Positions 8,076 to 31,492 of a stretch of DNA of 33,278 nucleotides are shown here, piece by piece (positions within the stretch are counted from its first letter, which is position 1; every line of letters begins with the position of its first letter). The DNA is from Clostridia bacterium (lineage in GTDB: Bacteria; Bacillota; Clostridia; Christensenellales; Aristaeellaceae). The stretch covers positions 1 to 33,278 of the forward strand of contig JAFUHD010000117.1 of NCBI GenBank assembly GCA_017469025.1, read 5' to 3'. The notes beneath the pieces are model-generated. The model made no database searches, had not been told where the DNA came from, and saw nothing but the letters and a program-made list of their open reading frames with translations. The position numbers were made by a program, and so were the translations under genes.

Positions 8076-8081
8076 TATCAT

Positions 8082-8152
8082 ATCCTCCGTAAAGAAATAG
8101 TTGTGCTTTCGGCACCGTATCTATCGCTGTAATCATTATTTGAAAAACCAGA
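8082..8152 (-). repeat. Leader element copy F (before DUF2200)
   Basis: Read on minus, this copy contains the family core GATACGGTGCCGAAAGCAC and the flank TTCAAATAATGA, and ends at the GGAGG of the DUF2200 gene. The shared peptide frame is kept (LVFQIMITAIDTVPKAQL) but lacks the usual stop and runs on into the start of DUF2200. The first hairpin of the family (CCAGCA/TGCTGG) is lost, so this is a diverged copy. Confidence 0.75.
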
Positions 8153-8255
8153 TCAACTCCTGCGGACTGTCTTTTTTCGTTTGCCGGGTAAATTTGTTCA
8201 TAAGAGCGTGTTTTAATTATCGAGTCATAGATTGATTGGTAAAAGAGGTGTAGAT

Positions 8256-8510
8256 ATGCTCCAAAACAACATAGAACTGGATCTGAAAACTCGGATGATC
8301 GAAGCCGATTTGTCACAAAAGGAAATTGCTGAGAAAGTCGGGATTACGCTTTCCTACGTTAATCGCATAACCAAAGGGCGGGAGCAGATTTTGAATAAGA
8401 CCTTTGTGAAGATGATGGAAGCGCTTGGCTACGACGTGGAGCTAACCTATAAGAAAAAGGCAGCCGACCGAGGCCGCGGCAAATCAGTATTCTGCTTATG
8501 CTTCGGATGA
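8256..8510 (+). CDS. Small XRE-type helix-turn-helix regulator
   Basis: The 84-aa protein has a single Cro/CI-type helix-turn-helix at about residues 10-60 (MIEADLSQKEIAEKVGITLSYVNRITKG split over the helices) and then a short basic tail. The start at 8256 follows AGAGGTG; the eight upstream in-frame codons have no better site. The last 15 bases overlap the end of the convergent GNAT gene, and the tail (ADRGRGKSVFCLCFG) does not look like a natural end, so the C-terminus may be a degraded or read-through version of a longer protein. DNA target unknown; toxin-antitoxin antitoxins often have this form, but no toxin lies beside it. Confidence 0.8.
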   Translation: MLQNNIELDLKTRMIEADLSQKEIAEKVGITLSYVNRITKGREQILNKTFVKMMEALGYDVELTYKKKAADRGRGKSVFCLCFG

Positions 8511-9095
8511 CTGTTTCAGCAGTTTGTATTGTTCAGCAGTTACGATTTTTCCGAATTCAATCATGGCTTTTTCGTATTCGTTTTCATAATGCGAAAAAGA
8601 TACTGTTTTCTGCAGCTTAAAGCCTAGTGAAATATACAGAAGAATTGCTTTCCAACTCCACGGCTGTGTATGGATATAGACAGGAAGGCCCTGGCGCTCT
8701 GCATAGATATTCATAACTGCGGTGCCAAGCGCTCTCCCAAGACCAATTCCCTGGTATCGTTCATCAACCACCAGCCAATGCAGGGAGGAAACACTGTTTA
8801 TCCCCTGCATATCCTGCCATGCTATGCAAGAGCCTATCAGATCATGATCCCTGTTCACGACGAAAAGAATGTTTGGGAGTAATTCAGCCCTCTGCAGATA
8901 AGTCTCTGCGAAATACTTCTCTGCTTCCGCTTCTGAATCAAAGTCGCCAATGGTGTATTCCAGTTTTGCCCATTCTTTTTCATACCCGGCCTGATATGAA
9001 ACGATAGAAAAACCGTCCGGCAGCGCCGGCTTCCTGTATTCATAATCGGAGCATTTCATAATCGTATTGCAGAATGGAATGGTTCTGTCAAGCAT
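8496..9095 (-). CDS. GNAT family N-acetyltransferase
   Basis: A 199-aa protein with the acetyl-CoA binding motif A of GNAT enzymes, LHWLVVDERYQGIGLGRAL, where Q-x-x-G-x-G/A is seen as QGIGLG. It is followed by a motif B-like segment ending LLYISLGFKL. The start at 9095 is set by GGAGG five bases upstream; the longer frame runs into the preceding GrpB gene. It lies 25 bases after GrpB and is probably co-transcribed with it. Acceptor substrate (small amine or protein N-terminus) cannot be told. Confidence 0.85.
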   Translation of the reverse strand: MLDRTIPFCNTIMKCSDYEYRKPALPDGFSIVSYQAGYEKEWAKLEYTIGDFDSEAEAEKYFAETYLQRAELLPNILFVVNRDHDLIGSCIAWQDMQGINSVSSLHWLVVDERYQGIGLGRALGTAVMNIYAERQGLPVYIHTQPWSWKAILLYISLGFKLQKTVSFSHYENEYEKAMIEFGKIVTAEQYKLLKQSSEA

Positions 9096-9120
9096 AATGT
9101 CCTCCGTAAATTCCGATTTC

Positions 9121-9687
9121 TCAGTATCGGTCTCCATATTCCTTTCGTGCTTCCGCTGTCCATTTGGAAATAAAACCTGTCTTTGCATCTGTATAAGCAT
9201 TCCGGTTATGCTCATATTGTTTCCAAAGCCGGAGTTTCAATGCTTCATATTCTTTTGCCACATCAGGATGCTCATTCAGATAGTCACGAAAGTACAGTTC
9301 ATCATTGTCTCCGGCGTACCGCAGATGGATATGATAAACCTTGTCCGCAAATCCATTTTCAGTATATCCCTTATTGAGCGAGATCCGATTTGCCTCGGCA
9401 GACATGATGATAAAGCCGTTCTGTTCCAATATCCGTGCCATATCCATCAAGCGGCTGCTTTCAGGTATTTCGACCATCACATCCACAATATTCTTTGCCC
9501 ATATCCCTTTAATCGCTGTGCTTCCAATGTGGTTGATTCCATGAACGGGACAGCCTGCAAACAAATCCCGCAGCAATGTCTCGATCTCTTTGTAGTCATC
9601 TATCCACTTATCGGTATGCTCGACAAGGAAGATTGGGAACAGCTTCCATAGTTCTTCCAAAGTCATTTTTGATAATTCTTTTCCCAT
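9121..9687 (-). CDS. GrpB family protein (nucleotidyltransferase fold)
   Basis: The 188-aa core matches the GrpB/UPF0157 family: start MGKELSKMTLEELWKLFPIF, nucleotidyltransferase-type strand HIGSTAIKGIWAKNIVDVMV, and the C-terminal YFRDYLNEHPDVAKEYEALK block. The function of these proteins is not firmly known. The start at 9687 fits the family but has no clear ribosome binding site. An ATG at 9774 preceded by GAGGAA would add 29 residues with several cysteines and is a real alternative. First gene of a pair with the GNAT gene. Confidence 0.85.
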   Translation of the reverse strand: MGKELSKMTLEELWKLFPIFLVEHTDKWIDDYKEIETLLRDLFAGCPVHGINHIGSTAIKGIWAKNIVDVMVEIPESSRLMDMARILEQNGFIIMSAEANRISLNKGYTENGFADKVYHIHLRYAGDNDELYFRDYLNEHPDVAKEYEALKLRLWKQYEHNRNAYTDAKTGFISKWTAEARKEYGDRY

Positions 9688-9982
9688 AAATTCAGATTTG
9701 TAGACATGTTCACGCGAACAGGCGGGTTTCAGTGGACAAGTTTCCACGAACGTTGGCAGGATATGAAGCATCATTCGTATTTCCTCATGCCATATCAGAT
9801 TCGTCGGAGCTCTTTCCGGCAGGCAGTCTTTTCCCACAGAACTGATTACCTTACGAGACCTAGCCTGTACTGACCCGTGTCATCCGGATTTACATGCCCG
9901 GAGTCGCCAGCACTGTTCCGGATGCTTTTCCTGCAGCCCTTACTGAAATTGATTGTCAATAGATAATGTATCAAAACAGATC

Positions 9983-10019
9983 GCTGCCTCCGGATACATG
10001 AAAGTATCCGGAGGCAGCG
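9983..10019 (-). terminator. Terminator of the alpha-glucosidase operon
   Basis: A perfect 15-pair stem (GCTGCCTCCGGATAC with its complement, 5-base loop) starts right after the stop of the 10022 gene and on minus is followed by a short T-rich stretch (TCTGTTTTG). Confidence 0.8.
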
Positions 10020-10021
10020 TG

Positions 10022-10363
10022 TTAATTTGCCGGTGTTTCCAGATAACGGACCTGTTTCCCATGTGCCTTGGCATAGGCAATTTCGGAGCGGGTGCTTTCG
10101 CCGATATAACCGCCGGCATTGATTACGAATATTTCATCCGCCATATCGATTTTCCGCTTATGCATGTCATCCAGCATCGCCTTTGTCGCCGTCATGGTGT
10201 CCTCCGTCATTCCCTCCCAGACTTCACTGTCTCCGGAATGACCAAACAGTCCCACACTGATCACAATGTTGCCTTCAAGTGTCAGCCTCTTCTGGGCAGC
10301 CATGAATTCGTCTTTGAAACGGGTACTGCCGCACAGCGTTATGACCTTATATCCACCGACCAT
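10022..10363 (-). CDS. Nucleoside 2-deoxyribosyltransferase-like protein
   Basis: A 113-aa single-domain protein with a Rossmann-like start KVITLCGSTRFKDEFMAAQK and the segment ADEIFVINAGGYIGESTRSE followed by IAYAKAHGK. This is the pattern of small 2-deoxyribosyltransferase/DUF4406-type proteins (phosphate-binding STR and GESTRSEI). These bind or cleave nucleotide-like ligands, but activity has not been shown for many of them. It begins three bases after the stop of the alpha-glucosidase gene and is translated from an AGGG within that gene's end, so the two are one transcript. No functional link to sugar use is obvious. Confidence 0.8.
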   Translation of the reverse strand: MVGGYKVITLCGSTRFKDEFMAAQKRLTLEGNIVISVGLFGHSGDSEVWEGMTEDTMTATKAMLDDMHKRKIDMADEIFVINAGGYIGESTRSEIAYAKAHGKQVRYLETPAN

Positions 10364-10366
10364 TTG

Positions 10367-12043
10367 TTATTTCCCTGTAGCCAGAAAGACCCGTGCCTCA
10401 TAAGGCTGCAGTTGTCCCTCCTGATGTGTCGAATAGTTGGAAATCAGTTCATCTCCAGTTTCTGCTGCAGACAGACTGCAGGGCGCCGTATGATCCGTCC
10501 AGTTGCACAGGACAATCAGTTTCTGTCCGTCCAGAACGCGCTGATACGCATAGACACTGGGATCATTTTCAAGAAGCGGCTCAAAGCTGCCATAGACAAT
10601 AATATCGTGCTGATGCCGCAGCGCAATCAGTTTCCGGTAATAGTTAAAGACGCTGTCCGTATCCGCCATTTCATCCTCGGCATTCACAGCCAGATAATTG
10701 AGGTTCACATCAATCCATGGCGTTCCTGTTGTAAAACCGGCGTTGACATCACGGTTCCACTGCATGGGCGTACGAGCATTGTCACGGGATATTTTTGCAA
10801 ACCAGCGCAGCATGTCCTGCCCGTCAACAAGGCCTGAATCCACCCACTGACGCCAGGCATTGATCACCTCTACATCTTTGTACTGGTCAATCCGTTCAAA
10901 GTATATATTGGTCATTCCAAGTTCTTCGCCCTGATAGACAAACGGCGTACCGTGCATCATGTGCAGCAGGGTTCCGAGCATCTTTGCACTCCGTGCGCGC
11001 CAGAGAGGACTGTCGTTGCCAAAGCGGCTCACCTGTCTCGGCTGGTCATGGTTGGACATGTAAACCGTCCCCCACGCTTTTCCCTGCAGATCTGTCTGCC
11101 AGCGGTTCATAACCTCACGGACCTCAGCAAGTGGCGCACCATAGTCACACCATTTTCCGGTTTCGGTGTGGGCATTGATACCGTCTGTATGCTCAAAGCC
11201 AAATGTCATATTGAGTTCGGAGCCGTCCAGATTGGAATAACGGATGGCATCTGCCGTACCGCCGCCGGCCTCACCGATTGTAATCAGGTCATATTTGTCC
11301 AGGACACGCTGACGCATCTCCCGCAGATAACGGTGGGTTGTCTCTGTATGCATGCAGGATGGACCGAAATCACCGTAAAGCGCACCCGGTGTCATCGGAC
11401 CGTCATTGAAATTTTCCTTTCCGATCATACCGATGACATCCATACGGAACCCGTCAATGCCTTTATCGCACCACCAGGACATCATATTAAAGATTTCGTC
11501 ACGTACTTTGGGATTTGCCCAGTTCAGATCGGGCTGCTTTCTGCTGAACAGATGCAGATAGTACTGATCCGTTGCCTCATCATACTGCCAGGCAGAACCG
11601 GAGAAGCAGCTGCCCCAGTTATTTGGTTCCCTGCCGTCCTTTGCATCTTTCCAAATGTAATAGTCACGGTACGGATTGTCCTTGCTCTTGCGGCTTTCTA
11701 CAAACCACGCATGTTCATCGGATGAGTGATTGGCAACCAGATCCATCACCAGTTTCATCCCGCGGGCATGAATGCCATCCAGCATCCGGTCAAAGTCCTC
11801 CATGGTGCCGAATTCGGGCATAATCGCCTGATAATCTGAAATATCATATCCATTGTCATCATTGGGTGATGCATAGACCGGGCTCACCCAGATCACATCC
11901 ACACCAAGCGTTTTCAGATAATCCAGATGCGCGGTAATACCGTTCAGATCACCGATACCGTCCCCGTTTGAATCCGCAAAACTGCGCGGATAAATCTGAT
12001 AGACAACTGCCTCCTTCCACCAAGCGCGTTTTTCACTGTTCAT
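10367..12043 (-). CDS. GH13 alpha-glucosidase / oligo-1,6-glucosidase
   Basis: This 558-aa cytoplasmic enzyme has the GH13 conserved regions in order: VVYQIYPRSFADSNGDGIGD at the start, DLVANHSSDEHAWF, GFRMDVIGM with the nucleophile Asp, ITIGEAGG with the acid/base Glu, and YMSNHDQPR with the transition-state Asp. Length and motifs fit the MalL/oligo-1,6-glucosidase subfamily (GH13_31), which releases glucose from isomaltose-type or alpha-1,4-linked short sugars. The start at 12043 follows AAGGAGG; 31 upstream in-frame codons lie in the promoter region and are not coding. A 19-bp palindrome (12071-12089) between promoter and start suggests sugar-dependent repression by a regulator encoded elsewhere. 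No transporter gene adjoins it. Confidence 0.93.
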   Translation of the reverse strand: MNSEKRAWWKEAVVYQIYPRSFADSNGDGIGDLNGITAHLDYLKTLGVDVIWVSPVYASPNDDNGYDISDYQAIMPEFGTMEDFDRMLDGIHARGMKLVMDLVANHSSDEHAWFVESRKSKDNPYRDYYIWKDAKDGREPNNWGSCFSGSAWQYDEATDQYYLHLFSRKQPDLNWANPKVRDEIFNMMSWWCDKGIDGFRMDVIGMIGKENFNDGPMTPGALYGDFGPSCMHTETTHRYLREMRQRVLDKYDLITIGEAGGGTADAIRYSNLDGSELNMTFGFEHTDGINAHTETGKWCDYGAPLAEVREVMNRWQTDLQGKAWGTVYMSNHDQPRQVSRFGNDSPLWRARSAKMLGTLLHMMHGTPFVYQGEELGMTNIYFERIDQYKDVEVINAWRQWVDSGLVDGQDMLRWFAKISRDNARTPMQWNRDVNAGFTTGTPWIDVNLNYLAVNAEDEMADTDSVFNYYRKLIALRHQHDIIVYGSFEPLLENDPSVYAYQRVLDGQKLIVLCNWTDHTAPCSLSAAETGDELISNYSTHQEGQLQPYEARVFLATGK

Positions 12044-12070
12044 ACGTATCAGCCTCCTTAAAAACATATT

Positions 12071-12100
12071 GACAGGAACAGTTCCTGTCTTTTCTTTATA
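12071..12100 (-). promoter_or_regulatory. Operator palindrome and -10 box of the alpha-glucosidase gene
   Basis: GACAGGAAC-A-GTTCCTGTC is a perfect 9+9 inverted repeat centred about 37 bases before the start codon. A TATAAA box on minus (12100-12095) lies just upstream, so the palindrome covers the expected transcription start: a typical place for a repressor operator. The regulator family cannot be told from the site alone. Confidence 0.6.
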
Positions 12101-12103
12101 TCT

Positions 12104-12623
12104 CACAATATGGTTCTGCTGCCGGCAGATCGCCAAATTATCTAAAAATACGGATCTCCTGCGCAGAATTCATTTCTGCTTTATCTGTGTATTATCATCC
12201 CAGAAGTTCAGGATAATGATACCGCAGATCATGGAAAACCGCAATAAGCCAGTCCATTGTTCCGGTCATCCAGGTTATGCCAATTTCATCAGCACATACA
12301 GAGGCTTTTTTCTTTTCAAAGGAAGTGCTCTGCGAATAAAAATGTCTTTCCCACTCTGCGGATTTCTTTGAAAGATCACCCAGGTTTGGCATTTTGTGAA
12401 TCGTCTTCACATGTGATTTCTTTTTCATTTCTCAGTGCCCAGACGATCAGGAACTGTGCCAAAACAAAGTCCTGCACAGTTTTCTGTATGAACCAGATCC
12501 GGTTGAAATATACGAAACGCCTATTGGACCAACTTAAGAGAGAGTCATTTTTTCTGTGTTGGCCCATCTTTCCGCTTTGAGGCAGACCGGCAGTATGCAC
12601 AGATCATCTTCTGACAAGTGACA
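12104..12623. other. Intergenic region with weak ORFs only
   Basis: About 520 bases hold two overlapping minus-strand frames (12195-12428 and 12376-12600) without ribosome binding sites or known motifs. Some stretches (WERHFYSQSTSFEKKK; KTVQDFVLAQFLIVWALRN) look slightly protein-like and might be debris of a lost gene. I see no RNA gene or repeat here. Confidence 0.35.
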
Positions 12624-13136
12624 TTATTTGTGAATCCGGATTTCCGGCAGAACAGCGTCAACATCTACAAAGGCGATGTCCTCATTCATCCGGTCGATAT
12701 ATACAGGCACCTCATCAGAGGTAAGCAGATCGCGGACATCCGTATATAGATAGCGGCTGAAATAAACATGCGCCACACCTGAATGCGGATCGACATAATG
12801 ACATTCCAGCACATATGGATGGCGCCCATTCAGATGCACACTGCTTATTGTCTGCAGACCTGTAATTTTAGCCATCACATAATTGCCGCTTTCATAAGCC
12901 CGTCTCAGACCGCTGCGCCTGTAAAGTTCGAGGAAGAGACATATCAGCCCCACTGTCAGGAGAATTACGCCTGTCCCGCCAAATGAAGCCAGAAAAATGA
13001 GCGATTCCCTTCGGTCTCCCATCACATCAAAATACCAGAGAAGCAGTCCAAGCAAAAGAAAAACCGCACTGATTGAAAGAAATATCAGTGCAATTATCCC
13101 ACGGACTGTCCAGCCATATTTTCTGGATGTTTCCAT
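12624..13136 (-). CDS. Two-helix membrane protein of unknown function (DUF3592-like layout)
   Basis: The 170-aa protein has two transmembrane helices near the N-terminus (about residues 10-38, IIALIFLSISAVFLLLGLLLW, and 45-70, SFGGTGVILLTVGLICLFLEL) and then a soluble domain of about 95 residues containing YVLECHYVDPHSGVAHVYFS and VPVYIDRMNEDIAFVDVD. This order resembles DUF3592-type envelope proteins, but I cannot confirm the family. The second ATG (13136) is chosen because GGAGG lies six bases before it and would overlap the first. Probably a single-gene unit. Confidence 0.7.
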   Translation of the reverse strand: METSRKYGWTVRGIIALIFLSISAVFLLLGLLLWYFDVMGDRRESLIFLASFGGTGVILLTVGLICLFLELYRRSGLRRAYESGNYVMAKITGLQTISSVHLNGRHPYVLECHYVDPHSGVAHVYFSRYLYTDVRDLLTSDEVPVYIDRMNEDIAFVDVDAVLPEIRIHK

Positions 13137-13460
13137 TTCCATCCTCCATCTCTTGTCCGAATCAAACGGACAGGCAAAGCATTCATCCTGAACTTCATGT
13201 GCCTGACCGGTACCTGGTTTTGAATATCACAAATCTATTAAAACCAACCGGATTAAAAGAACAAATCCAGGCAGCAGACAGTTGAGATTTTTTCGCTTTT
13301 CGAATCAGCAGCGGGCGCAACAACGAACTCTGTTACTCACCTGAGGAATCATCATAACATCAGGCAGGAATAGCAGCATGGGAGCGGTTTTCAAGGTATG
13401 GTGAATCCGCATCCGGTTCATCCTTCTTAAATACCGTTCAGAATCTGTCCTGTATTCAGC
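13137..13460. other. Intergenic region
   Basis: About 320 bases between the membrane protein and the HAD gene. No ORF with a ribosome binding site and no clear terminator hairpin is seen. It must contain the promoter of the 12624-13136 gene, but no clear -35/-10 pair stands out. Confidence 0.4.
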
Positions 13461-14285
13461 TCAGATGAGGCCGAGCGTGCGGAATGCCCACTCAATTCCA
13501 TCCTCTTCTACGGACGGACAGATCAGGCTGCTTTTTTCCCTCAGCTGCGCACTTCCATTGGCCATACAGACCGAGCAGCCTGTTGTTTCCAGCATTTCAA
13601 GATCATTCATGCTGTCTCCGAAACCAATTGTATCCTGCAGCAGAATACCGAAATGATCCGCAATGATGCGCACACCGCGTCCCTTGTCAAACTTGCGGTT
13701 TATTAACTCGCCATCCACGCAGTTGTATTCCGTCAGCTCATGGACCAGAAATCGGAATCTGTCCCCAAGTGCCTGCCTGGCCGGTTCGATCTGCTTTTCA
13801 TTTCTGCACATGAAAACGATCTTGTAAACCGGTTGTCCGCCATATTCCCGCATTGGACGGATATTCAGCTGCTCTGCCAGAGCAGTCCGCCACCGCTTCA
13901 GTTCACTTCCGCCTTCTCCGGCCTGTGCCACGAACTCATCCAGCTTATCATCCATCCAGGTGCCCTCGCACGCTTCGATTGTGCGAATCACATCATTTTC
14001 CTCAAACAGCCGCATGGCGGTATTGAGCTCCGTCTGTGTCATCGGGCAGTCAAAAAGAACGTCTTTTCCTGCAAATACATATCCGCCTGTACTGGCCACT
14101 GCACCTTCAAACCCGAGCTTTAGAACAGGCTGGAGCATATCAAGGTTACGGCCGGTACACAAAAAGATCCTGTGACCGTTTGACTGTGCTGCCCTGACAG
14201 CCCTCATGGCACTTTCCGGCGGAACGTTTTTGCCAGGTGATGTCAGTGTACCGTCTATATCCAGAAAAACCAGTTTCTGATTCAT
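13461..14285 (-). CDS. Cof-type HAD-IIB family phosphatase
   Basis: The 274-aa protein starts with the HAD motif I FLDIDGTLTSPG (nucleophile Asp and general acid Asp in DIDGT). Motif II Thr lies in RIFLCTGRN and motif IV in GFGDSMNDLEML, with a class IIB cap between (about residues 85-190). These enzymes remove phosphate from small phosphorylated metabolites such as sugar phosphates or flavin precursors; the substrate cannot be told. GGAG lies seven bases before the ATG. It is followed upstream by an alpha/beta hydrolase gene in the same direction, about 95 bases away. Confidence 0.92.
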   Translation of the reverse strand: MNQKLVFLDIDGTLTSPGKNVPPESAMRAVRAAQSNGHRIFLCTGRNLDMLQPVLKLGFEGAVASTGGYVFAGKDVLFDCPMTQTELNTAMRLFEENDVIRTIEACEGTWMDDKLDEFVAQAGEGGSELKRWRTALAEQLNIRPMREYGGQPVYKIVFMCRNEKQIEPARQALGDRFRFLVHELTEYNCVDGELINRKFDKGRGVRIIADHFGILLQDTIGFGDSMNDLEMLETTGCSVCMANGSAQLREKSSLICPSVEEDGIEWAFRTLGLI

Positions 14286-14380
14286 GCAAGTTCTCCATTC
14301 TCCTCAGTTTTCCGTGCTCCACATTGGGTACAGAACGTGTCTTCTTCAGGGGATTCCAATGCCGCTTCCGCAGAAGCTGG

Positions 14381-17799: not shown

Positions 17800-17811
17800 A
17801 TCATGTTCTCC

Positions 17812-17897
17812 TTTAATGACATAGTCGTGCTTTCGGCACCGTATCAATTGCAGTTGTCATGATTTGACAAACCAGCATGAAATGCTGGGCCATCTCC
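17812..17897 (-). repeat. Leader element copy A with 26-aa peptide ORF (before UroD-like gene)
   Basis: Best-preserved copy. On minus it reads GGAGATGGCCCAGC, hairpin CCAGCA/TGCTGG, TTTGTCAAATCATGACA, core GATACGGTGCCGAAAGCAC, then TATGTCATTAAAGGAG. A peptide frame starts at ATG 17893 and stops at TAA 17813-17815 (26 aa, core QIMTTAIDTVPKARLCH). Its stop overlaps the AAAGGAG of the downstream gene, so the two could be translationally coupled. AATGACA/TGTCATT-type outer pairing and an inner GTGC/GCAC hairpin are both possible. Confidence 0.85.
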
Positions 17898-17980
17898 TTT
17901 GTTTATAGTTGCGCTTTCGGCGTCGTATCAATCGCAGTTTTCATTATTGGACAAACCAGCACAAAGTGCTGGCCATATTC
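17898..17980 (-). repeat. Leader element copy B with 28-aa peptide ORF
   Basis: Tandem copy directly upstream of A. The hairpin CCAGCAC/GTGCTGG is perfect. The inner stem has changed from GTGC/GCAC to ACGC/GCGC, keeping a pair by changing T-A to C-G. The peptide frame runs from ATG 17989 to TAA 17903-17905 (28 aa, core VCPIMKTAIDTTPKAQL) and is followed by AAAGGAG. The outer stem is lost in this copy. Confidence 0.8.
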
Positions 17981-18052
17981 TTTATTCATAGTTGCGCTTT
18001 CGGCGTCGTATCAATCGCAAAAGTCATATCTGACAGACCAGCTCATTTTCTG
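17981..18052 (-). repeat. Leader element copy C (diverged)
   Basis: Third tandem copy, with the core GCGATTGATACGACGCC and GAAAGCGCAACTATGA intact. The first hairpin is degraded and one base is missing before the core, which breaks the peptide frame; only MTFAIDTTPKAQL remains readable. TGTCAGATATGAC keeps the upstream pairing. Probably a decaying duplicate. Confidence 0.7.
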
Positions 18053-18189
18053 CACACCGGGCGGAAGTCAGGCACGACGCTCTCCGGTCCGGGAATAGAA
18101 ACACCCATAACCGCTAAAGCGTCAGTGCAAATACCTTACCGGATTTGCGTGAGACGTGCAGCGCGGATCACGCAGGCATTCATATCGCT

Positions 18190-18468: not shown

Positions 18469-18921
18469 TCAGATGTTTGTTGTAATGCATTTCTTGACCG
18501 ATATCATGAAAGAAGATTCAGGCACCGGAATCTCTGCCTGTACCTGATTCAGCCTGACTGCCTCTACCGCGCTTTTCAGTTCTTCGGTCAGTACATCTGG
18601 TGATGCGGGTTTTAGGATATACCCAAAGCAGTGCAGTTTTACTGCCCGCTGGGCATAATCAAACTGCGGATGCCCGGTGAGGATCAGCGAAACAGGATTA
18701 TATCCATGCTCATGAGCCCAGCTAATCAGTTCAAGACCGGATTGTCTTGGCATTTCCACGTCCGTCAGCAGAATATCAATCTTTTTTTCTGCAAAAATAT
18801 CCTGGGCCTGCTGGACACTGAATGCCGTTGACACCGACGTGATACCCAGTGCATCAAAATCCAGATCACGCACAATAGATTTTACGATGAAGTATTCGTC
18901 GTCCACAATCAGCAGATTCAT
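18469..18921 (-). CDS. Response regulator receiver domain (truncated YesN-type)
   Basis: The 150-aa product is a full CheY-like receiver: acidic pair D7-D8 in LIVDDE, phospho-acceptor D54 in LLTDVEMP, T82 in ILTGHP and K104 in YILKPAS. A short linker then ends in KKCITTNI and a TGA stop. The missing AraC domain follows in the same frame. Its partner kinase gene ends 33 bases upstream. As written this protein can be phosphorylated but cannot bind DNA, so it could act only as a phosphate sink. It would normally activate the divergent transport operon. Confidence 0.88.
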   Translation of the reverse strand: MNLLIVDDEYFIVKSIVRDLDFDALGITSVSTAFSVQQAQDIFAEKKIDILLTDVEMPRQSGLELISWAHEHGYNPVSLILTGHPQFDYAQRAVKLHCFGYILKPASPDVLTEELKSAVEAVRLNQVQAEIPVPESSFMISVKKCITTNI

Positions 18922-18953
18922 GTTTCCTCCTCCTTCAGGTCATCCACCTGAGT

Positions 18954-20792
18954 TTACGGATCTGCTCCATCTGCATCCTCATGACATTCCGGTCCGGCGC
19001 ACCGGTCCGGTTCCCTGCTCAAAAAGGGAATTTGGATATCCACCCTGGCACCTGCGCCAGGTTCATTTGAAAATACAACCTGTGCTTCATCCCTGAAGAC
19101 CAGTTCAATGGATTTGACTATGTTGTAAATCCCAATATGCCGTCCATCCCGGACCGCTTCCGGATGATCGAGTATGTGGTTACAGTGTTCAAGTGCTTCC
19201 AGCGGATAGCCTGTGCCGCTGTCGACAAAGCCGATGTGGATCATCTGTCTGCCTTTTATTTCAGCAGCCTGCACGGATACCGATATTTTTAGCCATTCTC
19301 CCATGATCAGGTTGTGTTTGAGCGTATTCTCACACAATGTAAGCAGTGTCATGGGCGGTATGCAGGCCAGCGTGCATGACCGGGGCAGATCCAATTCATA
19401 GGAAAGACTTCCGGGATATCTGATACAGGCCAGTTCCAGATAATTGTCCAGATGATCAAATTCCTGTTCAAGCGGGATCACATCACCTGTTGCAAATGAG
19501 TACCGGATGTGCTGGGACAGGGTCTGTGTCAGCCGCTGGGCAGCATCATGATCGCTTTCATCAGGCGATGAAGCCAGATAGGAAAAGGTATTCAGGCAGT
19601 TAATGAGAAAATGCGGCGTAATCTGGGATTTCAGAAACTGAAGTTCCATTCTGCTCTGTGTCAGCTGATCTTCATAAATCTGCGCCTCAAGCGTCTGAAT
19701 ATTGTCAAGCATGCCGTTGAGCACATGGAACATCTGGCGCACTTCCAGACACCGGCTGTCAGTAGGCAGAATCGGCGCTTTCTGTTTACCATCCTGCAGC
19801 GCCCTGAGGGTCTGCTGCATGGATTTGACAGGCTGACCGATCATCCGCTTGAAAAGTGCTGAAAAGACCAGTACAGCCAGCGCAATCACCCCGATCATCG
19901 AGAGCGTATTCTTGAAAACGGGAGAAAGCATGGACTGCAGCAGGGAAAAAGGTGTAAAGACAATCAGATAACAGTCACTGTAGGATGTCCTGTGGGCATT
20001 CACCATGTATCTGTACCCGTCAGGTGCGGTATAGCTCTGATAATGTGTCAGGGAAATATCGTCAAAAACATAGTCCGGAAAAAGATCCCCCTGCAGCAGA
20101 TGGCATTCAGGGTCCAGCATACTCACTACGCTCTCTCTCGGCAGGATGTTGCGGAAAGACGCAATCAGTGTCGGAACACTGGTCCATGCGCCAAGCACAC
20201 CACTGCCGGAATAGACATAACGCACAAGGTAGGTGCTGTCTTCATACCGGATCAGCTGCCACTTTTTAAAGACATTCTGCATCCGGGAAAAATCCTCCCG
20301 GGTATCGGAGAGAAAACGTTTCACATACTCAGAGCAGCCATAAGATGCCGTCCTTGCAACATACGGCGTGTAATCATCTGCAGACGGAGAATAGAAAAAA
20401 AGGCCGTCTGTTTCCGGGAATACCGGTGCAAGATTTGTCAGTTCCTTATATAGTGTCATCTTCGCCTGATAAAACACCTGTGCGTCACTGGTCGTATTGA
20501 TCAGGGATACATTGGTATTATAGGCACCAAGCTGAAAAAGCTGACGGTCCAGCGTATTGAAAGCCGCCTCCGTATCGCTGTTAATCTGTGACTCCATGCG
20601 GCCTATGGTATCCAGATACTGGTCGGTAAACTGTCCCTGAAAGTAGACCGATACAAAGCCAATTACCACCAGTGAAAAAAGAAGCAGAAAGACCGCCGTA
20701 AGGATGCTGATGGTCGCCAGCGAATATGTAAATTTCCTCGGCTGCCTGAAAGCAGAGCCCTTCCCCGCCTTTTCCGGTTTCAATGTTTCCAT
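18954..20792 (-). CDS. YesM-type sensor histidine kinase
   Basis: A 612-aa membrane kinase. Helix 1 at about 24-48 and helix 2 at about 296-315 enclose a ~245-residue extracellular sensing domain. A HAMP-like linker follows, then the His_kinase domain with phospho-acceptor H394 (SQITPHFLINCLNTF; canonical QINPHFLFN). The ATPase domain has N box LCENTLKHN (486-494), DSGTGYP (524-530) and GIYN (554-557). Kinases of this class sense sugars or oligosaccharides outside the cell and act with YesN-type regulators beside LplABC-type transporters. Here it is divergent from such a transporter operon, with a palindrome in the shared promoter region. The N-box asparagines are intact, so activity is expected. 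Confidence 0.93.
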   Translation of the reverse strand: METLKPEKAGKGSAFRQPRKFTYSLATISILTAVFLLLFSLVVIGFVSVYFQGQFTDQYLDTIGRMESQINSDTEAAFNTLDRQLFQLGAYNTNVSLINTTSDAQVFYQAKMTLYKELTNLAPVFPETDGLFFYSPSADDYTPYVARTASYGCSEYVKRFLSDTREDFSRMQNVFKKWQLIRYEDSTYLVRYVYSGSGVLGAWTSVPTLIASFRNILPRESVVSMLDPECHLLQGDLFPDYVFDDISLTHYQSYTAPDGYRYMVNAHRTSYSDCYLIVFTPFSLLQSMLSPVFKNTLSMIGVIALAVLVFSALFKRMIGQPVKSMQQTLRALQDGKQKAPILPTDSRCLEVRQMFHVLNGMLDNIQTLEAQIYEDQLTQSRMELQFLKSQITPHFLINCLNTFSYLASSPDESDHDAAQRLTQTLSQHIRYSFATGDVIPLEQEFDHLDNYLELACIRYPGSLSYELDLPRSCTLACIPPMTLLTLCENTLKHNLIMGEWLKISVSVQAAEIKGRQMIHIGFVDSGTGYPLEALEHCNHILDHPEAVRDGRHIGIYNIVKSIELVFRDEAQVVFSNEPGAGARVDIQIPFLSREPDRCAGPECHEDADGADP

Positions 20793-22506: not shown

Positions 22507-22517
22507 TTTCATAAGAA

Positions 22518-22603
22518 AATGGCCAGGTGCTTCACGCAGGCCTGTCAGAATAACAGACAGTACAGATGAATCGGTGCCGAAAGTTCAAAATGCTGTCTGA
22601 AAG
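22518..22603 (+). repeat. Leader element copy G, diverged (before permease 1)
   Basis: This copy keeps ATGGCCAG, CTGTCAGAATAA, the core CGGTGCCGAAAG and the final AAAGGAA ribosome binding site of permease 1. Outer-stem bases differ from the other copies, yet pairing is complete: CAGACAG (22554-22560) with CTGTCTG (22593-22599). CTGTC (22542-22546) can pair instead with the same GACAG, a competing stem also possible in the other copies. The shared peptide frame survives only near its end (ESVPKVQNAV, TGA). Confidence 0.55.
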
Positions 22604-22614
22604 GAAATTCCGCA

Positions 22615-24463: not shown

Positions 24464-24496
24464 AGTGCCGGGGCAGAAATGCTCCGGCACTGTCTG
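24464..24496 (+). terminator. Intra-operon hairpin after permease 2
   Basis: AGTGCCGGGGCA pairs with TGCTCCGGCACT (12 pairs with one G-T) around a GAAA loop and is followed by GTCTGTATC. Strong stem, weak T run: likely an attenuator or mRNA-end protector before the downstream genes. Confidence 0.65.
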
Positions 24497-24499
24497 TAT

Positions 24500-24588
24500 C
24501 AGGAGATCGCCCGGCACTTTGTGCTGGTTTATCAAATAATGACAACTGCAATGGTTACAGAGCCGGAAGCACGACTATGTCATTAAGG
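24500..24588 (+). repeat. Leader element copy D with 35-aa peptide ORF (before the fusion gene)
   Basis: Contains the hairpin CCGGCAC/GTGCTGG, TTTATCAAATAATGACA, a diverged core (ACAGAGCCGGAAGCACGAC) and TATGTCATTAAGGGAG. The peptide frame runs from ATG 24479, inside the preceding hairpin, to TAA 24584-24586 (35 aa, ends HFVLVYQIMTTAMVTEPEA then RLCH). The stop touches the GGGAG of the fusion gene. The outer stem AATGACA (24538-24544) / TGTCATT (24578-24584) is perfect. Confidence 0.8.
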
Positions 24589-24596
24589 GAGAGTTT

Positions 24597-26768: not shown

Positions 26769-28555
26769 GCAATTCACAACTGTATCCCGTTAGCAATGAA
26801 TACAGACGCGCACAGCTTCTGGACGGCCTTTGGCGCTTCCAGTTTGATCCGAAGTCTGAAGGTGAAAGTGAACAGTGGGCATCTGCCGGTCTCCCGCAGC
26901 CCATTTCAATGCCTGTTCCTGCAAGTTTTGCAGATTTGTTTACTGAAGCCTGGCAGCGTGATTACTGCGGTGATTTCTGGTATGAAACTGATGTATACGC
27001 ACAGGAAATATCTGCTGATCAGCGCTATTTCATCCGGTTCGGCAGTGTGACCCACCGCTGCCGTGTATATCTGAACGGCAAACTCGCCGGTGAGCACGAA
27101 GGCGGTTTTCTGCCTGTCATGCTGGATGTAACCGGACTCATTCATACCGGATGCAATCGCCTCAGCGTGCTGGCAAATAACGAGCTCAATGAAACCAGCA
27201 TTCCCTGCGGTGCTGTCAGTGTAAAACCGGATGGAACCAAACTTGCCCGCGGCTATTTCGACTTTTTCAACTATTCCGGTATTCACCGCAGCGTCTGGTT
27301 CCTGCAGATGCCTGATGCACATATTCATGACTTCAGCCTCTCATACCGTCTGGATGGAAAGAATGCTGTCATTTCATATTCTGTTGAAGCAGATGGCGAA
27401 GTGAGCATCACCCTCAGAGACCGTGACGGCAGTATTGCAGCCACTGCAGACGGCAGCAGCGGTGAGATGTATGTAAAAGATGCCCACCTTTGGCAGGTGC
27501 GCAATGCGTATCTGTACACCCTTACCATTCTCACTAAAACGCATGGTAAAGTTACCGATCGCTATGACACATCTGTCGGTATCCGTACTGTTGAAATTGA
27601 TGGGAACAGCATTCTCGTCAACGGACAGCCAGTTTATCTGAAAGGTTTCGGCAAGCACGAGGACTCCGACATGCTCGGCCGCGGATTCAACTGGGCTGTA
27701 GCAAAGCGTGACTTTGAATGCATGAAGTGGATTGGTGCCAACTGTTTCCGCACCAGCCATTACCCCTATGCTGAAGAATGGTATCAGATGGCAGATCAGG
27801 AAGGTTTCCTGATTATTGATGAGGTGCCCGGTGTGGGCATGATGCGCAGCTTTGCCAATTTTATGGCCGCAGGCGCAGGAAAATCGAACGGCTTTTTTGG
27901 CGACTGTCCCGATGTTGATCTGCTCCAGAAAAACCACCATGCTGCCATTGAGGAAATGATTCTGCGTGATAAAAACCATCCATCTGTCATCGCATGGAGC
28001 ATTTTTAATGAAGCTGAAACCATTACTGCCGCATCGCACGACTACTTTGCCCCACTGTTTGAGACCGCCAGAGAGCTGGATCCGCAGCATCGTCCGGTAA
28101 CCGGCGTTCTTGAAAAAACCAGCAGTCCTGACCGCTGCCAGTGCTGGCCGATGATGGATTTCATCTGTTTGAACCGGTATTACGGCTGGTATATCAGCGG
28201 TGGAGATCTGAAGGATGCCGAAGCTCAGTTCATTGAGGAAATGGACCAGTGGGCAGCCAAAGCACCAGATGTTCCCTTTGTCTTCACTGAATTCGGAACT
28301 GACACGCTTGAATCCCTGCACAAACTGCCAAGTGTAATGTGGAGTCAGGAATATCAGTGTGAATACATGGATATGAATTTCAGTGTATTTGACCACTATC
28401 CGTTTGTCCAGGGTGAACTGGCATGGAACTTTACTGATTTCCAGACAGGTCAGGGCATCATGCGCGTCAACGGCAATAAAAAAGGCCTGTTTACCCGTCA
28501 GCGTCAGCCAAAGGATGCTGCCTTTACCATGAAAAAGCGTTGGGAACAGCGTTAA
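26765..28555 (+). CDS. uidA: Beta-glucuronidase (GH2)
   Basis: A 596-aa GH2 enzyme with sugar-binding domain (1-180), immunoglobulin-like domain (about 181-275) and TIM barrel. Acid/base E416 lies in WSIFNEAET and nucleophile E509 in FVFTEFGTDT. The glucuronate-specific N-x-K motif is N571-K573 in GNKKGLFTRQRQPK, which points to true glucuronidase rather than galactosidase. RTSHYPYAEE and LAWNFTDF are also family blocks. A ~20-residue insert (FANFMAAGAGKSNGFFGDC) sits where Loop 1 enzymes of gut bacteria carry their active-site loop. It starts inside the end of the fusion gene, with GGAGG just upstream. It removes glucuronic acid from conjugates or oligosaccharides in the cytoplasm. No clear terminator follows before the insertion sequence. 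Confidence 0.95.
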   Translation: MSNSQLYPVSNEYRRAQLLDGLWRFQFDPKSEGESEQWASAGLPQPISMPVPASFADLFTEAWQRDYCGDFWYETDVYAQEISADQRYFIRFGSVTHRCRVYLNGKLAGEHEGGFLPVMLDVTGLIHTGCNRLSVLANNELNETSIPCGAVSVKPDGTKLARGYFDFFNYSGIHRSVWFLQMPDAHIHDFSLSYRLDGKNAVISYSVEADGEVSITLRDRDGSIAATADGSSGEMYVKDAHLWQVRNAYLYTLTILTKTHGKVTDRYDTSVGIRTVEIDGNSILVNGQPVYLKGFGKHEDSDMLGRGFNWAVAKRDFECMKWIGANCFRTSHYPYAEEWYQMADQEGFLIIDEVPGVGMMRSFANFMAAGAGKSNGFFGDCPDVDLLQKNHHAAIEEMILRDKNHPSVIAWSIFNEAETITAASHDYFAPLFETARELDPQHRPVTGVLEKTSSPDRCQCWPMMDFICLNRYYGWYISGGDLKDAEAQFIEEMDQWAAKAPDVPFVFTEFGTDTLESLHKLPSVMWSQEYQCEYMDMNFSVFDHYPFVQGELAWNFTDFQTGQGIMRVNGNKKGLFTRQRQPKDAAFTMKKRWEQR

Positions 28556-28743
28556 TCAAAATACAGAAACTCCGTGAACCAGAGCAGAAACATACGTTTT
28601 ATTTTCTGCCTGCCTCATCCAGGTAATTAATGAGTTGGAACACAATACAGCGATTCTTATGCACCTGAGAATGAACCCGGCATGATGTATCCACAGACAC
28701 CGGAGAGCAGTTTCCCATCTCCGGAAATCTTCCCGTATAAAAA

Positions 28744-28757
28744 CGATGAGAAGACCC
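28744..28757 (+). repeat. Target site duplication, left copy
   Basis: CGATGAGAAGACCC stands immediately outside the left inverted repeat of the insertion sequence and is repeated exactly at 31014-31027 outside the right one. Confidence 0.85.
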
Positions 28758-28867
28758 CAATGGCGTCAACCAGTTTGTAGTTTTTTTACAACCAGGCTGG
28801 AAAGACAGCCTGGTTAAGGGAAAATCAGAGGACAAATACCGTATGCTACACTGTAGATCAGTATGAC

Positions 28868-30391
28868 TCATTTTCGCGTGACATATCCGTTTCCGGTTTT
28901 ACACCTGTCGATGGGAGGATTGCGCCTTCCATCGACACGAAATTTCCGGCGTGGCAATGAGCCCTTCCAACGATTCCATCTCCGTATATGTCTCCCTTCC
29001 CGAATGGCAACTTTCTCGAGGAGGCATCCTGGAATAAAACGCTCTTGAAAATCCAAGAGTTCCTGATTGCTGAGAGGGAGAGCTCTGGAGATGCTTCGAA
29101 GAACAAACGGATCCAGGCGCATGGTATCCAGAACGTTCTTCATGTTAATCTTGTATGTATACTTGTTTTGCGATCTGAAATGCGATCTTCTGCCAACGGA
29201 AGATGCTGATGTCTCTGAAGAATTAACGGGAGGTGGCTCATTAGATGATGCGGTTTTGCCTGAAGAAGGATGTTCCGCTTTCGCAGTAGCTTCATTAAAT
29301 ATGACACCACCCAGAACTAGTGCTACATATTTCGCGTAGGTTTCGCATTCGATGATACTGGCTATTCCGGAATTCAGGTTTTCTGCTTCCAAATGACTCT
29401 TAAGATTAAAATAACCAGTTTCGATTTTCCAACGTCTTCCATGGTAAATTTTCACAACTTCTTTGTCTGTAATAGAAGTGAGTTCGGAAGAAACATAATA
29501 GATTCCATCCGAAGACTCTTCTTTATTTTCAAACATATATGAAAACGTATTCTTAATTACCCGGACGTCGCATTGATAGCCTATTTCCGCAGCATACTGC
29601 TTACAGGTCTCATTTCTCATTCGTTTTATCCAGGCATCATTAAAAGAAAGCGTAATCACTTTGCTTCGCTCGATATCTTTGGTTAATTCCTTATAAAAAT
29701 TGACCTTTCCTCTGATAACGAAGGAATAGCCCATCTTTTTGCAATAAAGGAACAGTTCACCACTTCCATAATAGCGGTCAGCAAGAATGATTACTTTCTT
29801 ACCACGGAGGATATCCCTACAAGCTTCAAGGTGTTGATACAACATATCTGTCTCTGAGACATCATATGGTTGTACAACACAATCCAGTACAACGTGATTT
29901 AGCACATCATAAAGCATGGATGTCCTTGCCTGAGGTGTTGGTACATCATGGATGTCCTGACCTTTCTTGTTGATTTGCCCGCCAAAGGTCTTTCTGGCAT
30001 CGTCACTTGACGGCAAATCAAAGTGGGATCCATCCACAGCTAACAAGTAGTATCCGTCGTACAACCTATAATACTCATACGTTGTCACATACTGCACATA
30101 AAAAGCTCGAATCAGTACTCGAAATACAGCAGGATTCACTTTCAACATTGCTTTGAACATTGCTTGACGGGACACACGTTCCCTGTTCAAGTCACCAAAG
30201 AAAGCAGAAATCTCCTGATTTAGAGTGTTCAAATGACGGAAAATCATGAAGAGTAACACATCCTGCAACGTGATTTTCCTCACTTGTGTAAATCCTCGAG
30301 GCGTTTTTTGGGCAGCTTTGAACACTTCTGATGAATACAACAACTGCTCCATTATATGCAGATAAAAAAGAAAGTCAGCTAAGCACACCAC
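28868..30391 (-). CDS. IS4 family DDE transposase
   Basis: The 507-aa enzyme has the RNase-H-like triad of IS4 transposases: D120 in LLAVDGSHFD, D205 in VIILADRYYGSGEL and E324 in YHGRRWKIETGYFNLKSH, the last being the YREK-type signature with K331. The C-terminal ~70 residues are basic. The frame opens with GTG at 30391; a more likely start may be the ATG at 30352 (MEQLLYSSEVF), but neither has a good ribosome binding site, so it may be translated by coupling to the upstream accessory gene, which stops 22 bases before. It cuts and rejoins the element at its 21-bp ends. Confidence 0.93.
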   Translation of the reverse strand: MVCLADFLFYLHIMEQLLYSSEVFKAAQKTPRGFTQVRKITLQDVLLFMIFRHLNTLNQEISAFFGDLNRERVSRQAMFKAMLKVNPAVFRVLIRAFYVQYVTTYEYYRLYDGYYLLAVDGSHFDLPSSDDARKTFGGQINKKGQDIHDVPTPQARTSMLYDVLNHVVLDCVVQPYDVSETDMLYQHLEACRDILRGKKVIILADRYYGSGELFLYCKKMGYSFVIRGKVNFYKELTKDIERSKVITLSFNDAWIKRMRNETCKQYAAEIGYQCDVRVIKNTFSYMFENKEESSDGIYYVSSELTSITDKEVVKIYHGRRWKIETGYFNLKSHLEAENLNSGIASIIECETYAKYVALVLGGVIFNEATAKAEHPSSGKTASSNEPPPVNSSETSASSVGRRSHFRSQNKYTYKINMKNVLDTMRLDPFVLRSISRALPLSNQELLDFQERFIPGCLLEKVAIREGRHIRRWNRWKGSLPRRKFRVDGRRNPPIDRCKTGNGYVTRK

Positions 30392-30413
30392 TTTCTGGAT
30401 AGAAAGGTCATTC

Positions 30414-30809
30414 CTATGGACATAGTGAATCCTCCTCTTTGAGTTCGGTCAGTGCATCGGATAGAGCAGCTTCAAACTTGATAATCCGGGAAACAGATCG
30501 ATCTGTATATTCCGTGACGCGCTGCAGACACGTTTCAAGTGCTGAAACACGCTCTTCGAGTGAACTTAATCGTTCATTCAGAACAACGCTGTTATCATTG
30601 GTCGTGGATTCTTCGTTAATGGTGGAATCAGGAGTATCGGACGATTCCTTGCGGTATGTTTTCTTGGGCAGAATGTTGCCATTTTCATCTACTTTTCCAA
30701 GATACGTGCGCCTCGATCTTGGACGTTTGATATTCTTGTCCCAATAGCTGGTGCTCTCATACGCATATCGTTGTCCGTTCTTTCCTTCTGTGTATACAAT
30801 AGTCGGCAT
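30414..30809 (-). CDS. Accessory protein of the IS4-type element
   Basis: A 131-aa protein with a basic N-terminal region (RSRRTYLGKVDENGNILPKK, residues ~31-50), a serine/threonine-rich spacer and a C-terminal coiled coil (LNERLSSLEERVSALETCLQ). It lies inside the inverted repeats just upstream of the transposase. A small positively charged domain plus coiled coil suggests a DNA-binding or regulatory partner of the transposase, but no function can be assigned from sequence. The start follows a GGGGGA (complement of TCCCCC near 30812). Confidence 0.75.
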   Translation of the reverse strand: MPTIVYTEGKNGQRYAYESTSYWDKNIKRPRSRRTYLGKVDENGNILPKKTYRKESSDTPDSTINEESTTNDNSVVLNERLSSLEERVSALETCLQRVTEYTDRSVSRIIKFEAALSDALTELKEEDSLCP

Positions 30810-31013
30810 ATGTCCCCCTAGTACTATTCAGTGCTAGTATACCAAGAGAAAAGCGTGCTGTCAATGCAAATCAGAAGAAATATCAGCTATTATTCCACAA
30901 AAAATACTTTATAATTATTAGCTATTTATTACAACAAACTTTTGAACATCAGTCAGTCAGCCTAAAAAATCGTTAATATTTGTTAGTTATTAACAAACTG
31001 GTTGACGCCATTG

Positions 31014-31027
31014 CGATGAGAAGACCC
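31014..31027 (+). repeat. Target site duplication, right copy
   Basis: Exact copy of CGATGAGAAGACCC at 28744-28757, adjoining the right inverted repeat. Fourteen bases is longer than the 8-12 usual for IS4 relatives. Confidence 0.85.
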
Positions 31028-31055
31028 CTTTTGTCTGCCGATTTTCACTTACATC

Positions 31056-31171
31056 TTGTTTTCTGAATTATGATCATGTTATGATACGCCCGTCGTTAGA
31101 TACGGCACATGTCTAATGATCTCCTTAATAGTTACTGCTTCCCCCAAGCACAGGGAAGCAGTCTTTTTTTA
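31056..31171 (+). ncRNA. Small RNA-like module i (promoter, hairpin, terminator)
   Basis: TTGTTT and TATGAT stand 18 bases apart (31056-31061, 31080-31085). Then follows a perfect nine-pair hairpin GTCGTTAGA/TCTAATGAT (31092-31120, loop TACGGCACATG) and a strong terminator ACTGCTTCCC/GGGAAGCAGT with T7 (31134-31170). Predicted transcript about 80 nt from near 31092. No ORF fits inside. The block matches modules ii and iii, with paired changes in the first hairpin. Confidence 0.6.
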
Positions 31172-31226
31172 CACCAGCCCAGTTTCTACCAGCTTGCAAC
31201 CGGCATTTTGCATACCAGTACGCAGT

Positions 31227-31306
31227 CCGATTATCAACTGAGTCTTGTGTTTCCGGGAAACATTTGTTACTGCTTTCTCAGGCATATGAGAAAGCGGTTC
31301 TTTTTA
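31227..31306 (+). ncRNA. Degenerate small RNA-like module (i-b)
   Basis: CCGATTATCAACTGAGTCTTGTGTTTC matches the upstream part of the other modules in staggered form, and the end has the family terminator (ACTGCTTTCTC/GAGAAAGCGGT, T5). The -10 region and first hairpin are deleted, so it probably makes no RNA of its own and serves only as a terminator. Confidence 0.4.
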
Positions 31307-31407
31307 CCGTACTTTTCACACTCCCACACTGGGGACAATGAAGAAAGTACAATACACTATCATTTGTGTTTGCAAATTGCTTTGTTTGGTATATACTTCA
31401 GTTGAAT

Positions 31408-31492
31408 GGAGATGGTCCAGCATTTCATGCTGGTTTGTCAAATAATGACAACTGCGATTGATACGGTGCCGAAACCACGACTATGTCATTAA
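31408..31492 (+). repeat. Leader element copy E with 28-aa peptide ORF (before RelB remnant)
   Basis: Near-identical to copy A: GGAGATGG, perfect hairpin CCAGCATTTCATGCTGG (31417-31433), TTTGTCAAATAATGACA, core GATACGGTGCCGAAACCAC and TATGTCATTAA. The peptide frame runs from ATG 31406 (or 31412) to TAA 31490-31492 (28 aa, core QIMTTAIDTVPKPRLCH). Here the ribosome binding site after the stop is weakened (TAATAGAG). Outer stem AATGACA (31444-31450) / TGTCATT (31484-31490). Confidence 0.85.

Follow-up and report, generated by a model that had tools for sequence, protein, structure and literature searches.

Results

Copies of the repeat in the window

The window analysed here, that is, the whole stretch of 33,278 nucleotides of contig JAFUHD010000117.1 from a Clostridia bacterium (family Aristaeellaceae), contains a set of genes preceded by copies of a short element, which we call the Shine-Dalgarno (SD) repeat. 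The contig is C100 of an assembly of 4,252,068 bases in 373 contigs (GCA_017469025.1, hereafter G000). The unit of the repeat contains two hairpins, P1 and P2, and has an (A)AGGAG motif on both sides, of which an earlier note on this DNA had seen only the one at the 3' side. The seven copies claimed in that note are all real, and every one of them scores above chance with R1, a covariance model built from 38 rows and applied to the window with filters off (Table 1). The rows of R1 include the window copies at 31407 and 24501, while the remaining five are independent of the model; moreover, the repeat families and inverted pairs of the window are also visible without any model. The common motifs, the orientation with respect to the next gene and the link with the ribosome binding site, as previously described, are valid for the window copies. 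The genes served are indeed unrelated, their Pfam matches being DUF2200, URO-D, BPD_transp_1 and amidohydrolase/carboxylesterase. The 92-residue open reading frame (ORF) at 31508, which had been read as RelB, gave no Pfam match at E 1e-3. A small helix-turn-helix ORF (HTH_3; 8232-8510, plus strand) lies on the opposite strand just past the first copy.

Table 1. SD-repeat copies in the window, with R1 scores and adjoining features
Position	Strand	Copy	R1 score (bits)	Ends and next gene
8080..8161	-	P1 hairpin largely missing (13 positions of the model)	50.5	Right end GGAGG precedes the DUF2200 gene (Pfam DUF2200, E 5e-46)
17804..17898	-	Array unit 3, nearest to the gene and closest to consensus	101.1	Terminates in ATTAAAGGAG; 8 nt to ATG of the URO-D gene (Pfam)
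17899..17982	-	Array unit 2, diverged	55.4	
17983..18060	-	Array unit 1, farthest from the gene and most diverged; incomplete match (model 11-85)	23.5 (E 2.3e-5)	
22514..22609	+	Diverged single copy; missed by a sequence-only profile at E 1e-3	36.9	Precedes a permease gene (Pfam BPD_transp_1)
24501..24595	+	Single copy	83.7 (training row)	End GGGAG; 5 nt to ATG of an amidohydrolase/carboxylesterase fusion gene (Pfam)
31407..31501	+	Single near-consensus copy	93.0 (training row)	Right end TTAATAGAG, then a small ORF starting at 31508
18926..19015	-	Possible decayed eighth copy	17.2 (E 0.0017; weak)	Overlaps the end of ORF 18954-20792 and directly precedes the next start at 18921

Unit layout, copy number and arrays

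The earlier observation is confirmed, and its extent is far beyond the seven copies reported. When up to three mismatches were allowed, the 19-base core of the unit matched G000 431 times (230 forward, 201 reverse), as compared to a single match (0 forward, 1 reverse) for the reversed-core control. Units are about 83-98 bp long, typically about 86 bp, and occur singly or in tandem, with a step of exactly 86 in 46 of 77 G000 steps. The G000 consensus reads GGAG-ATGGCCCAGCAC-NNN-GTGCTGG-TTTGTCAAATAATGACA-ACTGCAATTGATACGGTGCCGAAAGCACGACTA-TGTCATTA-AAGGAG, in which P1 is CCAGCAC/GTGCTGG and P2 is AATGACA/TGTCATT. A short fixed head, (A)GGAG-NNGG, followed by P1, was found in copies from five species.

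Arrays, their edges and their placement were analysed in 106 segments (323 kb of G000 and 88 kb of the congener G007), with genes called by a simple purpose-made caller; the G007 part takes in contig C43, which possibly belongs to another species. Decayed copies are under-sampled in this set, because the sampled places came from BLAST or the core pattern. A profile made from 122 seeds found 188 copies in the G000 segments and 43 in those of G007, forming 111 and 26 arrays, respectively; in both genomes together, 71 are single, 42 double, 20 triple and 4 quadruple. Arrays also sit at the ends of G000 contigs, for instance C1, C70, C97, C218, C235 and C292. Since several of the matches listed lie within about 250 bases of contig ends, the true arrays may be longer.

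The arrays have a polarity. Of 46 arrays, 33 have a gene-proximal unit that is nearer to the consensus than their first unit, and 10 show the opposite order (p 0.0007); these split into 19 vs. 5 start-adjoining arrays, 9 vs. 5 arrays away from starts and 5 vs. 0 cut arrays. Such a make-up looks like repeated insertion at the gene-nearest SD; selection on the gene-nearest unit could likewise make that unit look young.

Different unit types are joined at the AGGAG motif. At three loci of the congener G008, the main unit is joined at AGAGGAG to a unit of differing sequence and the same layout, with P1 CCATCGC/GCGATGG, then TTTTGTCAG or close to it, and P2 GCAGGTAC/GTACCTGC. This second type is followed by AGAGGAG and, a few bases on, by ATG or GTG as candidate ORF starts; the fold of one such unit has a z of -2.2 against shuffled sequences. 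In G003 a second unit type is joined at AAGGAG in two loci. A second type is also seen in G007 (C222, about 988-1154, minus strand), with P1 CTACTGC/GCAGTAG and core GGTGCCGAAAG. At a locus of G006 (C262, about 640-1040, minus strand), units follow one another at 87-bp steps and one frame reads as a 29-residue repeat; as this step is a multiple of three, two of the three frames stay open through the units.

Structure of the unit

Pairing was analysed in an alignment of 38 rows, picked from 132 G000, 43 G007, 17 G003 and 4 G006 candidates, some of which are chance core matches. The 95% pairing of P1 in this alignment is overstated for G007, because short variants without the P1 5' arm (14 of 43) were left out, and the P2 signal is lowered, because six G003 and G006 rows are out of register at P2. 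In these chosen rows from four species, the two-stem covariation score is 0.425 as compared to 0.223 in shuffled alignments, none of 500 shuffles reaching the observed value, and sliding the partners cuts it to 0.214 or less. Double changes are present at all 7 P1 pairs and at 6 of 7 P2 pairs.

The two P2 arms of the same copy form duplexes with mean energies of -5.8, -3.6 and -6.4 kcal/mol in G000, G007 and G003, respectively, whereas arms combined across these species give only -1.2 to -2.8 kcal/mol. When the 5' arm was shuffled, the means were -1.3, -2.4 and -3.5 kcal/mol in the same order. Swapping arms within a species made little difference, and shuffles were at least as good in 3, 2 and 11 of 40 cases. 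The P2 letters of G008 are very different (TGACGAGC/GCTCGTCA), and they pair at -9.6 to -15.8 in five copies, as compared to means of -2.1 to -5.6 against the arms of other species. The conserved feature is the two-stem fold and not a peptide: letters change between species and the pairing stays. From these data, together with those on the peptide below, we read the repeat as a structured, mainly non-coding element. One G007 unit folds better than its dinucleotide shuffles (z -2.5).

A candidate third stem (GTGC/GCAC), located within P2 of G000, was dismissed, since by eye the copies inspected from G007, G003 and G008 do not retain it. Assignment to a known RNA family was rejected, as the window and seven loci gave no Rfam 15 match at the gathering threshold; the lone match obtained with five loci had an E of 0.65.

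The putative leader peptide

The earlier note had described the clear copies as encoding a peptide whose stop abuts or overlaps the SD, as in coupled leader peptides. The translation is right for the G000 consensus, which reads MAQHFVLVCQIMTTAIDTVPKARLCH followed by a stop, but its conservation fails across species. In 151 full G000 copies, 27 of 37 net indels break the frame. Codon position 2 is about as variable as position 3 (averages made by hand), and in the VPK codons it is the wobble positions that count among the best conserved. A mini-ORF that begins at the linker ATG and has its stop no more than 2 nt from the SD occurs in 97 of 125 G000 copies, but in only 10 of 40 copies of G007 and 2 of 10 of G003 (some G003 rows being doubtful). 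The stop falls at one identical place at the SD in 94 of the 125 G000 copies. The synonymous fraction in the proposed frame, 0.436 as compared to 0.288 in a column-permutation null (p 0.031, uncorrected for three frames), and 0.489 vs. 0.30 when P1 is taken out (p 0.04), points weakly towards a peptide, opposite to the other peptide tests.

Placement with respect to genes

In G000, an ORF start lies 5-11 nt past the right-hand GGAG in 56 of 100 sampled arrays. At random intergenic positions of the same genome a start was found in 1711 of 19857 cases (8.6%), and at repeat-free intergenic AGGAG motifs it lies at that spacing in 58 of 140. In G007, 18 of 25 arrays stand before a start, as compared to 30 of 64 native intergenic AGGAG motifs. 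The placement of the repeat at gene starts, which had been taken as support for a leader, is therefore mostly a preference for SD-like targets; what remains is a modest extra preference for gene starts beyond the motif (p 0.036 in G000 and 0.037 in G007; an excess of about 1.4-fold). R1 matches lie directly before an ORF start in 5 of 18 cases in G003 and in 9 of 16 in G008, where many matches of both genomes have a further unit after them; of the nine in G008, at least one (L297) is doubtful, as it reads into a second unit. The uniform orientation of the copies holds in the window, but not genome-wide: for the 101 G000 arrays with more than 300 nt of 3' flank, the next called gene is on the same strand in 82 cases, on the opposite strand in 18, and there is none in one.

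The two edges of the arrays behave differently. GGAG is found at the left edge of 25 of 38 start-adjoining arrays and of 21 of 33 arrays away from starts (p 1.0), and at the right edge of 33 of 38 and 13 of 33, respectively (p 4e-5), as if selection for translation kept the right-edge motif near genes. Where the body of a copy agrees with the consensus at 95% or more, the internal positions are nearly fixed. Conservation at the single positions is 71-98% in the left AAAGGAG; in the right AGGAG of copies away from genes it is 78-96%, with the minimum at the outer end.

One G000 copy (L117, contig C148) sits within a terminator stem that contains AAAGGAG. It is preceded by AAAAAGGAG and followed by CTGCCGTCGCAGCTCCTTTTT, and the terminator-like stem AAAGGAGCTGC/GCAGCTCCTTT spans the insertion. 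In 36 usable arrays, the mean predicted probability that the SD is unpaired is 0.47 with the unit, as compared to 0.305 when the unit is cut out in silico (p 0.0014); the value with the unit is not different from that of 87 native starts (0.40; p 0.11).

Host range and orthologous sites

R1 found the repeat in six of 29 congeners and in none of the other 23, within the limit that it would miss diverged unit types beyond the reach of the model. Matches number at least 143 in G000, at least 143 in G007, 134 in G003, 82 in G008, 8 in G020 and 5 in G006. Among 308 genomes of the family, searched with stricter filters and with 13 candidates scored per genome, the same six carriers were found and no other genus. 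The types of unit differ from species to species in the copies inspected. A scan of genome contigs with the core pattern gave two named contigs from roe deer gut metagenome-assembled genomes (MAGs), L061 from Clostridia bacterium RGIG4336 (a roe deer jejunum MAG) and L062 from Lachnospiraceae bacterium RGIG5021. Contig C43 of G007 is 100% identical to L061 across the 3,000 bases compared. The host bacterium is probably from an animal gut. L061 combines two G000 loci (C159, C162): its left 225 bases share 94% identity with one of them, and its bases 149-1500 share 84% with the other. This join, in which the two parts meet in a repeat array, is either a recombination between arrays or an assembly chimera.

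Relatives differ in having units at orthologous starts. Before pfkA, G000 has one unit and R1 finds none at the loci of five relatives, the G007 locus searched being that of a 43% paralogue; the pfkA start of G006 has a single AAGGAG and that of G008 has AAAGGAGTTGGAG, with two GGAG motifs. G000 also carries one unit between argJ and the upstream ORF, the only clear one among the relatives at this site: G006 (AATGAAGGAGATTCTC-ATG) and G003 (GTAGAAGGAGATACC-ATG) have one AAGGAG and no R1 match, G020 has a 17-bit remnant, G007 has no R1 match and a hairpin-like remnant seen by eye, and the argJ search in G008 gave no match. At pyk, G020 reads TGA-AAGAATTGGAGGGACAGGC-ATG, with no unit, and R1 has no match in G003 and G006. 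G007 has one unit, then GGAGGGACATCA-ATG, G008 has one, and G000 has one by R1 and a second by eye, the two sharing an identical 3' part. The pyk site is common to several species by descent or by repeated insertion. When 83 downstream proteins from G000, G007, G003, G008 and G006 were compared, just two cross-species matches were found, at 47% and 32% identity.

A separate direct repeat is present in the window at 31757-32145, where 136 nt occur twice with 93% identity at a step of 181. Shorter related pieces are at 31261 and 32076, and as far as seen it is unrelated to the SD repeat.

Discussion

Comparison with known repeats

Integron gene cassettes (attC) are hairpin-bearing units in head-to-tail arrays, which may grow at one end and hold mixed units. 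The SD repeat resembles them in its hairpin units, head-to-tail arrays, possible growth at one end and different units per array, but its units are gene-free and stand at hundreds of places; no integron integrase turned up, no search having been aimed at the integrase or the attC core. Miniature inverted-repeat transposable elements (MITEs) and IS200-IS605 remnants are non-autonomous, structured and have target-motif preferences, features that the SD repeat shares. Unlike MITEs, it ends in direct (A)AGGAG motifs without terminal inverted repeats, and no general target-site duplication was seen at those edges that could show one.

Repetitive extragenic palindromes (REPs) are roughly 20-40 nt long, start with a GTAG/GTGG head and often alternate in orientation within bacterial interspersed mosaic elements, according to the relevant part of PMC2817692. 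Like the REPs treated there together with their REP-associated tyrosine transposases (RAYTs), the SD repeat is short, has more than 100 copies per genome and a hairpin after a short conserved head, and belongs to host-specific families (PMC2817692). High copy number, intergenic location and a palindrome after a short fixed head are all found in it. It differs in its size of about 86 nt, its two stems, the direct orientation in arrays and the AGGAG target at SDs. Furthermore, unlike in REPs and REPtrons, no RAYT was found for it, Y1 transposase (Y1_Tnp) matches being partial in G000 and absent in G006 and G020.

In the pneumococcal BOX elements, as described in PMC3049150, the boxB repeats are enclosed by distinct A and C end modules, and the BOX-encoded ORFs treated in that paper had no good SD candidates. 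Both are small interspersed repeats of Gram-positive bacteria with modular tandem units, a predicted RNA structure and variable size (PMC3049150). In contrast to BOX, each unit of the SD repeat is complete, lies between AGGAG motifs and has the SD of the gene as its right end; the boxA-boxB(n)-boxC layout was not seen, the units being alike and the array edges having no separate end modules. The features that define REP (a RAYT partner) and BOX (the A-B-C layout) were not found in the SD repeat, which is distinguished among short interspersed repeats by its AGGAG target and AGGAG end. No description of SD-targeted repeats was present among the literature matches listed.

An origin from a phage or plasmid was rejected, as one unit gave no match with plasmids and phages at E 0.1 and the exact pattern was absent from viral contigs. 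Targeting by complementarity, as in group II introns, was also discarded, since the G000 consensus unit does not contain CTCCTTT (by eye).

Origin and function

We consider it probable, though well short of certain, that the SD repeat is a non-coding, two-hairpin interspersed repeat, private to six species of one genus, which inserts at SD-like AGGAG motifs and supplies an SD with its right end. This explanation starts from what was directly observed, namely copy number, conservation of structure, edges, statistics of the target motif, orthologous starts free of units and composition of the arrays. In each genome, units would insert at (A)AGGAG and multiply in this way, both as single copies and as tandem arrays. 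As the unit has AGGAG at its end, a gene whose ribosome binding site receives an insertion would still have a usable SD at the normal spacing of 5-11 nt from the start. With the SD restored, insertions at this common intergenic motif would do hardly any harm. Both this near-neutrality and the movement of units, rather than their copying by recombination, are what we infer. P1 and P2 may be the structure, in single-stranded DNA or in RNA, that is recognised by a recombinase or transposase acting in trans. The suggestion in the earlier note of a mobile or copied, structured, REP-like cassette is thereby supported, and no Rfam family matches it.

Several observations weigh against this explanation. 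No mobilising enzyme was found: the Y1 transposase matches in G000 are four, all partial, within an assembly that is 94% complete and from which a RAYT gene may be missing; the carriers G006 and G020 have no such match and some non-carriers do. The G000 Y1 ORF looks like an IS200 remnant, and a search of 20 Y1 loci with the G000 profile gave no unit. Among 36 young arrays, 15 deviate from GGAG on at least one side, only one of these 15 having the same variant on both sides (hand count), and arrays with GGAG on both sides, the common case, cannot reveal a target-site duplication. Almost half of the sampled arrays are not upstream of a start codon. Gains and losses of units are deduced from a comparison of congeners whose proteins are 81-89% identical. 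Since three species carry pyk units at the same place, vertical inheritance of some old sites is possible. The folding of the main unit is unremarkable with respect to dinucleotide shuffles (z -1.4 in G000, -0.6 in G003 and -1.2 in G008). Finally, neighbouring units of G000 (62 pairs) resemble each other slightly more than units taken from different arrays do (0.868 vs. 0.828), so local duplication also occurs.

The slight likeness of neighbours, together with the identical 3' part of the two G000 pyk units, the joining in L061 of the flanks of two G000 loci at an array, and the negative results for a transposase and for a general target-site duplication, is what would be expected of passive repeats, generated by tandem duplication and homologous recombination or gene conversion, with no dedicated mobility and with the AGGAG flanks serving as microhomology. 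Such processes would hardly seed hundreds of new SD places or join different unit types at AGGAG, and we regard this origin as improbable. A cis-regulatory RNA leader, in which the two-stem structure beside the SD would control translation or mRNA stability of many genes, the copies being selected and their spread secondary, is unlikely in our opinion, if somewhat less so. It agrees with the conservation of structure by compensatory change, with the right-edge SD kept beside genes, with the difference in predicted SD openness with and without the unit, and with the excess of arrays at starts over native AGGAG motifs; the gene-proximal units nearer to the consensus are also obtainable by selection. 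On the other hand, that excess is small, the next called gene is on the opposite strand for 18 arrays, one copy stands inside a terminator stem, the window genes served are unrelated, and downstream genes are rarely common to the species sampled, with pyk as an exception.

Translationally coupled leader peptides, each unit encoding a peptide of about 26 residues with its stop overlapping the SD, appear very improbable to us. The constant position of the stop in G000 and the synonymous fraction speak for them, but the frame-breaking indels, the rarity with which the mini-ORF reaches the SD in G007 and G003 and the conserved VPK wobble positions do not, and the start codon would lie 0 nt past GGAG. 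A further, tentative possibility, which we think doubtful rather than likely, is a cassette system with the SD as attachment site. In it, a single-strand recombinase acting in trans, which would recognise structure and not sequence, would add units that vary in sequence but have the common layout (AGGAG, P1, TTTGTCA, P2, AGGAG) one by one to the SD closest to the gene, and every insertion would renew the ribosome binding site.

With regard to annotation, it should be considered that the units create spurious small ORFs and that some contig ends of this assembly fall in arrays. Short interspersed repeats are usually thought to persist because they settle in gaps where they do no damage. The target preferred by the SD repeat seems to be the ribosome binding site, an intergenic motif under constraint, and the repeat apparently survives there because it brings a replacement with it. 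If this is true, it would account for the presence of hundreds of copies in a compact genome, it would provide a natural set of interchangeable 5' leaders, and it would point to an integration machinery with AGGAG as its target.

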